This document shows, piece by piece, positions 59,472 through 63,663 of a DNA stretch of 64,000 nucleotides (position 1 is the first letter of the stretch; every line of letters starts with the position of its first letter). Under the pieces are notes generated by a model. The model saw only the letters and a program-made list of their open reading frames with translations, was not told the origin of the DNA and did not search any database. This stretch comes from Roseococcus sp. SDR (GTDB taxonomy: Bacteria; Pseudomonadota; Alphaproteobacteria; Acetobacterales; Acetobacteraceae). The position numbers and the translations under genes are program-made. The stretch lies in assembly GCF_019083995.1 (NCBI RefSeq), contig NZ_JAHRCU010000004.1, positions 62,001 to 126,000 on the forward strand. Direction: 5' to 3'.

Positions 59472-59557
59472 GCACCTGATGTGCCGCCGCGGCTTTCGCT
59501 TGCAAGGGCGCGCGCGGCGGTTTCTGCTGCGCCGCAAAGACTTCGGGAGAGACGTTG

Positions 59558-60502
59558 ATGCTGCGCCGCACCTTGCTGGCCCTGCCGCTGGCCACCCCTG
59601 CCCTCGCGCAATCCCTGGGCGACCGCCCGGTCCGCCTCATCGTGCCCTACTCGGCAGGAGGGGTCGCGGACACGGTAGCGCGGATTCTCCAGCAGCGGGT
59701 TTCCGAGAATCTCGGGCTGCCCTTCATCGTCGAGAACCGGACCGGCGCCTCTGGCGCCATCGGCGCGGGCTTCGTGGCCCAAGCGCAGCCCGATGGCCAC
59801 ACGCTGCTGCTGGAGGGTGCCACCTCCATCACCGGGCCGCTCGCCAATCGCGGCCTGCCCTTCGATTATGCGGCCATGCCGCGCGTGGCGCAGATCACGG
59901 CCGCCCCCTATGTGCTGGGCATCCGCTCGGGCTTCCCGGGTGAGGATCTGCGCGCCTTCCTGGCCGAGGCAAAGCGGCGGCCGGGCGAGGTCACCTTCGG
60001 TACGCCGGGTATCGCGCATGTCGGGCATCTGATGGGGGAGCTGCTGCAGTCGCTCGCCGATGTGCGGCTGGAACACGTGCCCTTTCGTGGTGGCGCCGAT
60101 GCGGCGCGCGAGGTGGCGGGCGGGAGGATCGACGCCTGCATCATCAGCGAGAGCAGCTTCTCGCCCGTGCTGCGCGGGGAGCGCGGCCGCGTGATCGGCG
60201 TGACGGGGGCTGGACGGCGCCCCAACCTGCCCGGCGTGCCCGCGATCGGCGAGGTGGTGCCGGGCTATGAGCTTTCCACCTGGATGATGATCTTCGCGCC
60301 GCCTGGCACGCCCATGGCGCTGCGCCAGCGCCTGGCCCAGGCCTTCGCGGTGGCGCTCGCTGAAGCGCAGATCCGCGAGCGGATCGAGGCCAGCGGCAAT
60401 GACCCCGTGAGCGGCGGGCCTGAGGCGACGGAGGCGCTGTGGCAGGCCGAGCGTACGAAGCTGACGGCACTGATGCGGCGCGCCGGATTGGTGCAGGGAT
60501 AA
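59558..60502 (+). CDS. Bug/TctC-family tripartite tricarboxylate receptor
   Basis: A 314-residue periplasmic receptor of the Bug family. Signal peptide MLRRTLLALPLATPALAQ; mature PVRLIVPYSAGGVADTVARI is the family opening, with RTGASGAIGAGFVAQAQPDGHT and FGTPGIAHVGHLMGELL later. Ligands are usually small carboxylates or amides. ATG 59558 has GGGAGA seven bases upstream; TTG 59555 is an alternative. No TctA/TctB membrane genes are near, typical of the many solitary Bug genes in such genomes. Confidence 0.92.
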   Translation: MLRRTLLALPLATPALAQSLGDRPVRLIVPYSAGGVADTVARILQQRVSENLGLPFIVENRTGASGAIGAGFVAQAQPDGHTLLLEGATSITGPLANRGLPFDYAAMPRVAQITAAPYVLGIRSGFPGEDLRAFLAEAKRRPGEVTFGTPGIAHVGHLMGELLQSLADVRLEHVPFRGGADAAREVAGGRIDACIISESSFSPVLRGERGRVIGVTGAGRRPNLPGVPAIGEVVPGYELSTWMMIFAPPGTPMALRQRLAQAFAVALAEAQIRERIEASGNDPVSGGPEATEALWQAERTKLTALMRRAGLVQG

Positions 60503-60518
60503 AGCGCCTGGGGGTGGC

Positions 60519-60547
60519 TTGTGGCGCGGCGCGGGTTTCGCTAGAGA
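60519..60547 (+). promoter_or_regulatory. Possible tRNA-Val promoter
   Basis: TTGTGG (60519-60524), 17 bases, then TAGAGA (60542-60547), 41 bases before the tRNA. Both boxes are imperfect sigma-70-type matches with correct spacing. Confidence 0.35.
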
Positions 60548-60587
60548 CTGCGCCCACCGACGCCACGAGGATTTTGCCTCGGCAGGC

Positions 60588-60662
<75 letters not shown>

Positions 60663-60687
60663 TCCCCCTGAAGACACTCGTTTTTTC

Positions 60688-61500
60688 TTACGATCTCCGA
60701 GGCGAGCGGTTGAGGATGATGGCACCGGCCGCCCGCGCGGCCGCCTCGTTGCATCGCTCGGGGCCGACATGCGCGGCCAGCCGCGGCGCCTCACGCGCTA
60801 CATCCATGACCGAACCATGCTCGGGCACGCGGGTATGCGCCACGCAGACCGCGCCCTCGGCCGTCCAGCCGGCTTCGAAGAGGTAGGACGGGTCGTCGGC
60901 CGGTTCGTGCAGCCCGGCATCATCCCAGAAATCGATCGCCATGCCGTTGCGGGTCCAGCCGCGCTCCGGCGCGCCATAGGCGGCGCGGACCATGTTCACG
61001 CAAGCCGGGAAATAGGGGGCGAGCGAACGGCCATCGGGCGCCTGCGCCCAAGGGCGGTAGCCGAAGCGCAGGCACTTGCCGATGGCGCCGGCCGAGCAGG
61101 TGATGGCGAAGCCCTGCGGCTCATCCGGCTTGGGATAGGGGATGGCGCGGCTGCGGCCCTCGGGATCGGGCTGGCAATAGTCATGGCGGGCGCCATCGGC
61201 GCCGGCGAAGGTCAGGTGGAAGAGCCAGACATCCCCCGCATGCGGGCGGGTGTCGGCCTCGGCGGATTCGACGCGCAGGCTCAGCACCCGTCCGTTCTGC
61301 AGGATGCGCAGCTCAGCGCCCACGAGGTCGGCGCCGCGGAGGATGCGCCCATCGGCGAGCTCGGCGCGGAAATCGCCGCGCTCGACGCCGAGGCGGAGCA
61401 GCGCGTTGGGCGGCACCTGCTGCGCGCTCGCCTGAGTGGCCAGGCCGAGACACCCGGCAAGGGCGAACTGGACGAGGCGGCGGCGAAGGGAGTGGGCCAT
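60688..61500 (-). CDS. Secreted ADYC-like domain protein
   Basis: A 270-residue exported protein. Signal peptide with basic MAHSLRRR and cleavage near QASA/QQ (an LAGC lipobox at residues 14-17 is a less likely alternative). The region GKCLRFGYRPW, then FPACVNMVRAAYGAPERGW, resembles the ADYC domain known mainly from myxobacteria, with AAYG where others have ADYC. Further cysteines (HDYCQP, AITCSAG, AVCVAHT, ERCNEA) suggest disulfides. It follows the pentad-repeat gene with a strong hairpin between. Function of the domain is not known. Confidence 0.7.
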   Translation of the reverse strand: MAHSLRRRLVQFALAGCLGLATQASAQQVPPNALLRLGVERGDFRAELADGRILRGADLVGAELRILQNGRVLSLRVESAEADTRPHAGDVWLFHLTFAGADGARHDYCQPDPEGRSRAIPYPKPDEPQGFAITCSAGAIGKCLRFGYRPWAQAPDGRSLAPYFPACVNMVRAAYGAPERGWTRNGMAIDFWDDAGLHEPADDPSYLFEAGWTAEGAVCVAHTRVPEHGSVMDVAREAPRLAAHVGPERCNEAAARAAGAIILNRSPRRS

Positions 61501-61531
61501 GGCGCGGCTCCGGCAGGGCGGTGAGGGAGAA

Positions 61532-61556
61532 CCGCCCCCTCGGAAACGAGGGGCGG
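61532..61556 (-). other. Strong hairpin between repeat protein and ADYC-like genes
   Basis: CCCCTCG (61536-61542) and CGAGGGG (61547-61553) form a 7-bp stem with a 4-base loop, extended by CCG/CGG (61532-61534, 61554-61556) past a one-base bulge. It fills the middle of the 75-base spacer. Without a T-run it likely attenuates or protects the upstream message, favouring the small repeat protein over the ADYC-like one. Confidence 0.6.
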
Positions 61557-61575
61557 GCTCGGCGGTGGTGGGCGC

Positions 61576-61863
61576 TCAGTGGGCGATCGGCAGGGTGATG
61601 CCGAGCACCACCACACCCGGGTTGGTCGTCGCCTGGGCGCCGTTCAGCGTCAGCGCGTTGTCGGTGAGCGCGTTCTGCGTCAGCGCATTCGTGTCCAGCG
61701 CATTCGTGTCCAGCGCGTTCGTGTCCAGTGCGTTGCTGTCCAGCGCGTTCCAGGCGATCCCGTTCTCCATCAGCGCGTTGGCGGTCATCGCCGCCTGGGC
61801 GTTAGGGCTCTGGCCCGCGATCAAGGCGGCGATGGCGGCGGCGGCGAAAGCGATGCGGATCAT
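61576..61863 (-). CDS. Tiny secreted NALxx pentad-repeat protein
   Basis: A 95-residue predicted exported protein. Signal peptide MIRIAFAAAAIAALIAG... ending near NAQA/A. From Asn29 an uninterrupted period-5 array runs to Asn74 (N29, 34, 39, 44, 49, 54, 59, 64, 69, 74): NALME, NGIAW, NALDS, three NALDT, NALTQ, NALTD, NALTL, NG. The tail is VVVLGITLPIAH. The pattern differs from classic pentapeptide repeats (A(D/N)LxX) and recalls the NG-L repeats of myxobacterial secreted proteins. ATG 61863 has GAGAGGA eight bases upstream; that site is inside a perfect stem. An ADYC-like gene follows. Confidence 0.8.
   Translation of the reverse strand: MIRIAFAAAAIAALIAGQSPNAQAAMTANALMENGIAWNALDSNALDTNALDTNALDTNALTQNALTDNALTLNGAQATTNPGVVVLGITLPIAH
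61642..61779 (-). repeat. 15-bp tandem repeats encoding the NALxx array
   Basis: Units of 15 bp, best conserved from 61681 to about 61754 where GTCCAGCGCATTCGT-like copies follow each other. They encode the pentads of the secreted repeat protein; outer units have diverged at DNA level but keep Asn every fifth residue. Confidence 0.85.
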
Positions 61864-61869
61864 GTGGAC

Positions 61870-61917
61870 GTTCCTCTCAGGTTGGGTCACCAGGATCATC
61901 CCTGGCGTGAGAGGAAC
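61870..61917 (-). promoter_or_regulatory. Leader hairpin masking the Shine-Dalgarno of the repeat gene
   Basis: GTTCCTCTCA (61870-61879) is the exact reverse complement of TGAGAGGAAC (61908-61917 on the plus strand). In the minus-strand message the copy next to the ATG is the ribosome binding site (GAGAGGA, eight bases before 61863) and is fully paired with the upstream copy. Inside, CCAGG (61890-61894) and CCTGG (61901-61905) form a second stem. This looks like a cis-acting translational switch (thermosensor, attenuator or ligand/protein-controlled). Confidence 0.65.
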
Positions 61918-61983
61918 ATGCGCCACGCCTGTCGCCGCTTGATCGCGGCCAATGTCACGTCTGTCGCAACCGGCAGCGCGCGG

Positions 61984-63663
61984 TCAGCGCCGCGCGCGTT
62001 CGGCATGCTTGCCCATGGTGTTGTAGGGCGCATAGGGCGGGAATGCGCCGATCGCGGTCATGTCCACCTCGACCAGCGTGGGGCCATCCACCGCGAGCGC
62101 GCGCGCCACGACGGCGCCGAATTCCTCGGCTGCGCCGACGCGGAAATAGGGCAGGCCGGCCAGGGCCGCGAGCGGTTCCAGCGCCGGGCCCTGCAATTCG
62201 TCGCCGAAGCGCCTTCCATCCACCACCGCATCCTGGATGTGGCGGATCACGCCATAGCCGCGGTCATTCATCACGATGGTGCAAAGCCGCGCGCGCTCCT
62301 GCACGGCGGTCCAGAGCTCGGTGAGGTTCATCGCGAAGCCGCCATCGCCCACCATCGCGACCGTCTTGCGATCGCCCGCGCCCATTGCCGCGCCGATGCC
62401 GAGCGGCAGGCCAGGGCCGATGGCCGCACCCACCGGATGTACCGCATCGCGCGGGCCATAGACCTCGAAGATGCGGTTGCCCCAGGTGGAGTTGCTGATG
62501 GTGATGTCCCGCACCCAGAGTGCGTCGCGCGGCATCACGGCGCGGAGCTGCTTCGCGAAGCCGGCATAGGGGCCGAGCGTCGCCTCATATTCCTCGATGG
62601 CGAGCGCCTTGGTGCGCGCGACATCGGCGGCATAGCCGGGCTCCACCGCGATGCGGCCCTTGAGGCGCCGCGCCAGGCCCTGCGCCACCAGCTCCGCATC
62701 GCCCTGCAGGAAGTAGCGGTTGGGATAGGTGCGCCCATTCGCCGCCGCATCCACATCCACCTGGATGAGGTTGGCCGGCAGCTTCATGGAGAATTCCATC
62801 ATCTCATGCCCGCGCAGGCGCGAGCCGAGCACGAGCATGGCGTCCACGCTTTCGTAGAAGCCCAGGATGCGTGGTGCGCCATTGCCGTGCAGCGCGCCGA
62901 AGCTCATCGGGTGGTCCTCGGGGATGATGCCGCGCCCGTTCCAGGAGGAGACGGCGGCGAAGCCGAGGTCGAGCAGCGCCCGCGCCCCCTCGCCCGCCTC
63001 TCGCGCGCCATTGCCCAGCCAGATCATGGGCCGCTTCGCGCGGGCCAGGATCTCCGCCACCTCATCCAGCGCGGCCTCGCTTGGCGGCAGTGGCGGGGGC
63101 GGCGTCAGCGTCAGCGAGTCCAGCTCGCCCGGGCGCGGGATGACGGCGCGTTGCAGATCGATCGGGATCTCGACCGAGACCGGGCCGCGTGGCGGCGTCA
63201 TCGCCTCCTGCGCCGCGCGCAGCAGCACGCCCAGCGCCTCGCTCGCCGCCCGCACGCGATAGGCCGCCTTGCCGGAGGCGGCCAGGATCGCCGTCTGGCC
63301 CGGCACGTCATGCACCGTGCCCATGTCGCGATCCACGAATTTCGTCGCCGTCTGGCCGGTGATGTGCAGCACGGGCGAGCCCGCGAAACGCGCCTCCACC
63401 AGCCCGCCGATGCTGTTGGCCATGCCTGGCCCCGTGCTGGTGAAGAGCACGCCAAGGCCGCCTGTGACCCGCGCATAGGCGTCCGCCATATGGGCGCCGC
63501 CCATCTCGCCGCGGCACATGACGTAGCGGATGGCATTCCGCCGGCCGATCGCGTCCAGCATCGGGATGTTGTGGACGGAGACGATGCCGAAGACCGTGCT
63601 CACGCCGATGCGCGAGAGGAATTCGGCGACCAGGTCGCCCACGGTGTAAGGGGTTTGGGTCAT
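61984..63663 (-). CDS. ThDP-dependent acetolactate synthase-like enzyme
   Basis: A 559-residue thiamine diphosphate enzyme of the acetolactate synthase/benzoylformate decarboxylase superfamily. Order: Pyr domain with the cofactor-activating Glu53 (CRGEMGGAHMADAYAR), central domain (AKRPMIWLGNGA), PP domain with GDGGFAMNLTELWTAVQ and NDRGYGV, the Mg/ThDP motif. No small regulatory subunit gene follows, so a catabolic role (decarboxylase or lyase on a 2-oxo acid) is more likely than branched-chain amino acid synthesis. Same strand as the SMP-30-type gene upstream. Confidence 0.87.
   Translation of the reverse strand: MTQTPYTVGDLVAEFLSRIGVSTVFGIVSVHNIPMLDAIGRRNAIRYVMCRGEMGGAHMADAYARVTGGLGVLFTSTGPGMANSIGGLVEARFAGSPVLHITGQTATKFVDRDMGTVHDVPGQTAILAASGKAAYRVRAASEALGVLLRAAQEAMTPPRGPVSVEIPIDLQRAVIPRPGELDSLTLTPPPPLPPSEAALDEVAEILARAKRPMIWLGNGAREAGEGARALLDLGFAAVSSWNGRGIIPEDHPMSFGALHGNGAPRILGFYESVDAMLVLGSRLRGHEMMEFSMKLPANLIQVDVDAAANGRTYPNRYFLQGDAELVAQGLARRLKGRIAVEPGYAADVARTKALAIEEYEATLGPYAGFAKQLRAVMPRDALWVRDITISNSTWGNRIFEVYGPRDAVHPVGAAIGPGLPLGIGAAMGAGDRKTVAMVGDGGFAMNLTELWTAVQERARLCTIVMNDRGYGVIRHIQDAVVDGRRFGDELQGPALEPLAALAGLPYFRVGAAEEFGAVVARALAVDGPTLVEVDMTAIGAFPPYAPYNTMGKHAERARR

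Follow-up and report, generated by a model that had tools for sequence, protein, structure and literature searches.

The stretch of Roseococcus sp. SDR DNA that we call the window, 64,000 nucleotides in all, carries on its minus strand a pair of small genes, one for a protein built around a five-residue repeat (a pentad) that keeps returning to asparagine and the other, after a short spacer, for a protein with an ADYC domain. The features on which our argument draws are these, in the order in which that strand is read:

61576..61863, minus strand: pentad-repeat gene, first of the pair, 95 residues, ATG at 61863, drawn from the open reading frame and its relatives
61792..61863, minus strand: probable signal peptide, residues 1-24, cut after AQA (judged by eye)
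61630..61779, minus strand: period-5 array, with Asn at residues 29, 34 and so on to 74, most units reading N-[AG]-[LI]-x-x
61588..61614, minus strand: hydrophobic C-terminal tail VVVLGITLP, of a kind common to pentad proteins
about 61532..61556, minus strand: GC-rich hairpin in the 75-nt spacer between the genes, from folding
60688..61500, minus strand: ADYC gene, second of the pair, 270 residues, PF20032 match at E 2e-37
60826..61335, minus strand: ADYC domain, residues 56-225, six core Cys kept, tetrapeptide AAYG

The pair's neighbours are a tRNA (60588-60659), which was the sole Rfam match above cut-off in 59500-63000, a TctC-type receptor gene and the gene of a thiamine-pyrophosphate enzyme. 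Within 60400-62100 no sigma-70-type promoter and no T-tailed terminator was called, NCBIfam at E 1 matched neither protein of the pair, and no Pfam family matched the repeat protein at E up to 10.

How regular, then, is the repeat? Ten asparagines stand in a single period-5 register, from N29 to N74; in 20,000 shuffles of the protein's own residues the longest such run was eight, and among 983 six-frame stretches of at least 30 residues in the 64-kb window only the repeat protein holds a run of three or more. The same array appears at the DNA level as a 15-bp tandem repeat (61641-61750), and the longer open frame that contains the gene has a GC3 of 0.89 against a GC2 of 0.47. Each protein of the pair begins, as judged by eye, with a signal peptide and an AxA-type cleavage site, an AxA-like site ahead of the array recurs among the pentad relatives (alignment A3), and both proteins are apparently exported. 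A sequence-only reading of this DNA had described an exported 95-residue period-5 protein with a 270-residue protein behind it on the same strand, and that description holds: both minus-strand frames are there, and the array goes beyond what shuffling yields. Relatives that lack ADYC have pentad proteins of another sort (L095, L098, L099), rich in Asn, Met, His and Asp, which resemble the window's repeat protein in being small, apparently exported and of period 5 and in matching the same profile, if only at weak E-values, and differ from it in their M-rich units (MAPNA, MSHDA), in a tail that looks different by eye and in coming from genomes without an ADYC match; they may be akin to the 'MXKDX' family.

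The suspicion that the second protein is ADYC-like was borne out when PF20032 matched it with 129.5 bits (cut-off 27) over profile positions 1-175 of 176. We assign it to the family on the strength of that match and not of the tetrapeptide, presumably the origin of the domain's name, which is AAYG in the window and ADYC in L003 and many others. Six cysteine columns are invariant in a nine-row alignment that includes the window; across 54 rows, four Cys and a Tyr, Asp, Trp and Gly are invariant, and two further Cys are kept in at least 90% of rows, a pattern that suggests a disulfide-bonded exported domain. Foldseek with the ADYC model gave a best E of 0.18 in the PDB and 0.37 in BFVD, with nothing at 0.001 or below, and a literature search for the ADYC domain or PF20032 found no relevant paper. 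Two long and otherwise different proteins of the Myxococcota sample, L045 (G227) and L049 (G209), contain just a short RMVRADYCGDG-like or RMKRADFC-like motif, their PF20032 matches covering 25 and 34 positions only, and the motif may travel without the domain. A weak-ADYC frame in another genome (L055, G190) opens with a period-6 array of NGIPLG units.

Where else do such pairs occur? Elsewhere in the Roseococcus genome another ADYC gene is likewise accompanied, 28 nt upstream, by a pentad gene of its own with NGVxx units, and a scan of named genomes returned 15 ADYC loci, found in Acetobacteraceae (including Roseomonas, Falsiroseomonas, Roseococcus and Rubritepida), in two Devosia, in an Ancalomicrobiaceae MAG, a MAG labelled Odyssella, an unassigned alphaproteobacterium and a Polyangiaceae MAG. 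The distribution is patchy: in genome sets that overlap one another, ADYC was present in 7 of 100 relatives, 6 of 21 genus genomes, 3 of 385 genomes of a class sample, 11 of 140 genomes sampled from the phylum of the Polyangiaceae MAG (which we take to be Myxococcota) and 25 of 183 from its order. By our working definition of the module (a pentad gene next to an ADYC gene, the two sharing a strand and each coding for an exported protein, export being judged by eye) the window holds one, and the adjacency in relatives that the sequence-only reading had asked for was seen in Acetobacteraceae, Devosia, the Ancalomicrobiaceae MAG, Rhizobium/Neorhizobium plasmids and the Polyangiaceae MAG.

On a tree of 57 ADYC domains, rooted at its midpoint, a clade of 25 rows (SH-aLRT 93) collects the forms in which array and domain are split between genes, and 22 of its rows have a pentad gene nearby. 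A regular array gene lies directly upstream in 14 of them (the window, L002, L003, L006, L007, L013, L014, L015, L016, L020, L022, L023, L037, L060) and a decayed one in two (L033 and L064, labelled 'none' on the tree before their decayed genes came to light), and three have the pentad gene directly downstream (L138-L140). In L059 a contig break separates the two genes, the contigs sharing 99 identical bp, L004 has two displaced same-strand copies 1.4 and 2.9 kb away, and in L005 it lies about 4 kb off on the same strand, with an opposite-strand ORF of 1288 codons in between. No pentad gene was found for the remaining three, the sisters L008 and L009 together with L019, where the verdict is drawn from the ADYC surroundings alone; a genome-wide search with the pentad profile found none in G001, the genome of L008, and in G008, that of L009, found one only beside the other ADYC gene. 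The two sister rows are also without the AAYG..TRDG loop, and this joint loss, which counts as one event, hints that the loop faces the array. As to scope, alignment A2 and the tree leave out duplicate loci, fragments (L021, L034, L035, L048, L082, L083), frames with E above 1e-18 and the loci missed by the nine-row model (L044, L045, L049, L052-L054, L056-L058); L021 ends at a contig end and was left out of judgement, the classification is without most of the ten G190 matches, two in G733 and one in G730, and three rhizobial rows joined the tree afterwards, L141 being left out.

A plasmid protein search with the window's ADYC returned four rhizobial records (Rhizobium, Neorhizobium), three of them close relatives, and in all four the pentad gene, with NAITA-type or NALSN-type units and the tail VIGVELP or VISVELP, comes directly after ADYC and shares its strand: the order is reversed, the linkage kept. 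In G326, the genome of L059, the ADYC gene opens its contig and the pentad gene, matched by the profile, sits near the end of another, where the stretch just past it and the opening 99 bp of the ADYC contig are identical; this is consistent with direct adjacency, and the pentad contig diverges afterwards, which leaves room for strain mixture or an assembly error. The profile also recovered the displaced pentad gene of G007. These two genomes and the four plasmids served as blind cases, lying outside the pentad profile. One locus (L110, G020) has two pentad genes upstream of ADYC on the same strand, each after a helix-turn-helix-like regulator gene (by eye), as if regulator and pentad had been duplicated together, and in two others (L002; L109, G007) the ADYC gene lies just upstream of what by eye is an rnpA-yidD-like pair.

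In most other classified ADYC proteins of Myxococcota the array is in the same chain, directly before the domain, and the leader of this fused form often ends in a lipobox-like Cys (by eye). Beyond the split clade the tree has 32 rows: 22 are labelled fused (L075 counted among them though its array sits in another frame), nine are fused to a short array of two to three degenerate units and one (L086) has no label. The association of myxobacterial ADYC proteins with NG-L-type arrays, to which the sequence-only reading had pointed, holds, the two being fused in other genomes of the myxobacterial phylum. The window's protein shares with the family its full-length profile match, the six conserved cysteines and apparent export; unlike the members often fused to N-G pentads in Myxococcota, it is a separate ADYC chain without an array, reads AAYG at the tetrapeptide and has its array made by a partner gene. 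Split versus fused amounts to one change on the ADYC tree, which may be read in either direction (splitting or fusion) because the root is only a midpoint. The myxobacterial split rows (L016, L033, L037, L064) group with alphaproteobacterial rows, which suggests transfer between Myxococcota and Alphaproteobacteria.

Do the two families also keep company across whole genomes? Among the 100 relatives, pentad-profile matches at E 2.6e-9 or below fell in six genomes, all among the seven with ADYC, and the next genome followed at 7.5e-8 with a repeat that opens an oxygenase-like frame (by eye); five of those six had contributed profile rows, which makes the count partly circular, and the informative part is that no match of this strength fell in the 93 genomes that lack ADYC. 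The 385 class genomes gave matches at E 1e-10 or below in exactly the three ADYC genomes among the candidates scored (at most 14 per genome), a count that is again partly circular, two of the three having supplied profile rows. Co-occurrence is looser in Myxococcota than in these alphaproteobacterial samples: pentad match and ADYC occur together in G100 (where one pentad gene lies away from ADYC), G190, G209 and G212, the other five of the nine genomes matched at E 1e-5 are without ADYC (G109, G210 at 6.1e-9, G216, G221, G228), with arrays that, where seen, are mostly in longer Asp/Gly-rich or other frames, and seven of the 11 ADYC genomes have no pentad-profile match at that threshold.

The spacer between the genes deserves a word of its own. 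The sequence-only reading had seen a strong hairpin there; a hairpin is indeed present, but its strength is not out of the ordinary, since the window's spacer folds no better than its composition would have it (z -0.76, with 41 of 200 shuffles folding equally well). It is notable because the other folded spacers hold GC-rich hairpins too: each of the seven that we folded (61-131 nt) has one, with shuffle z values of -0.76, -1.77, -1.37, -1.24, -2.78, -2.55 and -2.76. Stems of 10 bp or more occur in four of the seven and in 31 of 2557 window tiles of 75 nt; the control is a weak one, since most tiles are coding sequence and one folded stretch measures 131 nt. The folding set leaves out short or overlapping spacers, L037 and L064. 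A plausible, if putative, role of the hairpin would be to give more repeat protein than ADYC per message.

What changes in the repeat protein, and what stays? Unit letters differ among relatives (NALDT, NGVKE, NGIDP, NAITA, NGLSI), split pentad genes beside ADYC have from 4 to 15 regular units, and arrays of related rhizobial plasmids whose ADYC genes are 98.3% identical are one unit apart. The tail is, to go by its letters, steadier than the units: the pattern hydrophobic-x-[GASVK]-[IVL]-x-[LMI], composed after the tails had been inspected, occurs in 21 of 25 of them, against a shuffled mean of 1.85 and a maximum of 6. We also considered the tail as a copy of the first strand of ADYC and dropped this, since the best match fell there in 3 of 15 cases and 10 of 100 shuffle rounds equalled that. 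AlphaFold built the natural fusion L061 with a mean pLDDT of 82; ten-residue blocks average mostly 83-96 over its ADYC part (to residue 320) and 93-95 over residues 71-90, the final two to three units of the array, and the array falls to 76 at residues 61-70 and below 50 before residue 60.

Is the window's array, then, the short right-handed beta-helix that had been guessed at? Our results do not support that guess. The AlphaFold model of the window array, built from 16 rows, has a pLDDT of 57 and a pTM of 0.19, the array has no match to the Pfam pentapeptide-repeat profile PF00805, and none of its registers agrees well with the pentapeptide consensus: the best agrees at 2.78 of 5 positions (just over the shuffled 95% point of 2.63) without a central L or F, the register that has a central L in eight of nine units agrees at 2.0, and the hydrophobic fifth residue is mostly lost. 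A review asks for at least eight contiguous consensus repeats in a pentapeptide-repeat protein (PMC8145042), and the window array, despite its ten period-5 asparagines, falls short of this. A profile of the pentads alone matched no pentapeptide-repeat structure, its best hits being DARPins at a chance-like E of 0.09. On all four counts (model, Pfam, consensus, profile) a beta-helix is unsupported for the window array.

We think it very likely, to the point of being nearly sure, that the pentad and ADYC proteins work as partners in one shared job, because the two are linked in both gene orders, fused in some lineages and found together across genomes. From the linkage, the fusion and the signal peptides we infer a surface or secreted device, and we would set the mechanism as a whole (a two-part exported module whose array is a tether that docks on ADYC outside the cytoplasm) at even odds, a probability of about 0.5. 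The two chains would be exported separately and, once outside the cytoplasm, would bind, with the C-terminal tail and the array end of the repeat protein docking on ADYC; we put the docking site of the split pairs there because the fused model runs the last array units into the ADYC fold. The array would serve as a spacer or tether of adjustable length, longer or shorter as 15-bp units are gained or lost, and would present or anchor the disulfide-bonded ADYC domain at the cell surface. That this domain binds is more likely than that it catalyses, given that no histidine and no obvious catalytic set stands among its invariant or nearly invariant residues, and this is the weakest step of the proposal. 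A fuller reading seems to us tentative at best: ADYC, with a fold so far undescribed, would be the nucleating cap for a length-adjustable extracellular stalk assembled from a degenerate pentapeptide solenoid, which alphaproteobacteria would supply in trans, from its own gene, and many myxobacteria in cis; one gene split or fusion, and movement between Myxococcota and Alphaproteobacteria, would lie behind it.

Against the tethered two-part module several other accounts have to be weighed, and the strongest of them, though doubtful, borrows its parts from a studied system. The array might be a secreted short pentapeptide-repeat protein (a quadrilateral beta-helix) that regulates something at the outer-membrane surface as a YjbI-like protein would, with ADYC for its cap or chaperone. 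YjbI of Caulobacter, also an alphaproteobacterium, is a pentapeptide-repeat protein that is secreted and sits on the surface of the outer membrane (PMC12864828), and it is the closest studied system by behaviour that we found. With such PF00805 proteins the pair shares a period-5 array and export, and the aliphatic-x-[L/F/M]-N-G form of several fused arrays (L062, L065, L077) and of the split L016 agrees with the published consensus, N-G falling in the turn. The ADYC-fusion profile, moreover, matches solved pentapeptide-repeat proteins (the designed beta1 series at 1.1e-7 for the best, NP275-NP276 at 3.4e-4, 2bm4 at 0.0038), and PF00805 itself is matched in 7 of 54 ADYC rows when E up to 1 is allowed, the best at 5.5e-7, and in 2 of 16 pentad rows when E up to 10 is allowed, the best at 1e-6. 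The difficulty lies with the window's own array, which differs from PF00805 proteins in lacking a profile match, in units that begin with N, in its poor fit to the consensus and in having a partner protein; the model of it is not a confident one, the profile of pentads alone finds no such structure, and some arrays have only four units, a single coil (L003). Less likely again is that the ADYC protein binds or processes the repeat protein, which would then be a precursor or ligand (a peptide signal or bait). That idea would suit a small exported protein whose unit number varies and which stands beside a separate binding-type domain, and also the one-unit difference between closely related plasmids; it sits badly with the Myxococcota chains in which array and ADYC are often one, with units that show by eye no obvious processing sites and with an ADYC domain that has no evident catalytic residues.

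Could the genes instead be together merely by descent, with separate jobs? Tandem genes can stay adjacent in close relatives, and the window and L006 do share, by eye, the thiamine-pyrophosphate enzyme neighbour; against this stand the reversed order in the rhizobial plasmids, flanking genes that are unlike between more distant loci, the fused forms and, in the two alphaproteobacterial samples, the confinement of strong pentad matches to ADYC genomes, and we consider such hitch-hiking improbable. A shade more improbable still is a toxin-immunity or defence cassette, which two small genes with a patchy distribution and several copies in some genomes (ten matches in G190) might bring to mind: PADLOC gave no match, both parts are apparently exported, and fusion into one chain is unlike a toxin and its antidote. 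No relative was found in viral contigs or phage records, which tells against that cassette and led us to reject a viral or phage origin as well; PHROGs gave three weak matches, the best at 3.7e-4, on the L061 array.

What would the partnership of pentad and ADYC proteins mean? The ADYC family, whose name appears in the product names of annotated records, gains a partner gene family that those records call 'hypothetical protein', and the existence of both fused and split versions allows the partnership to be tested directly. If the two proteins do bind each other, they would make up a new exported two-part system common to alphaproteobacteria and myxobacteria, with an ADYC domain for which the search of solved structures gave no match at E 0.001 or below.
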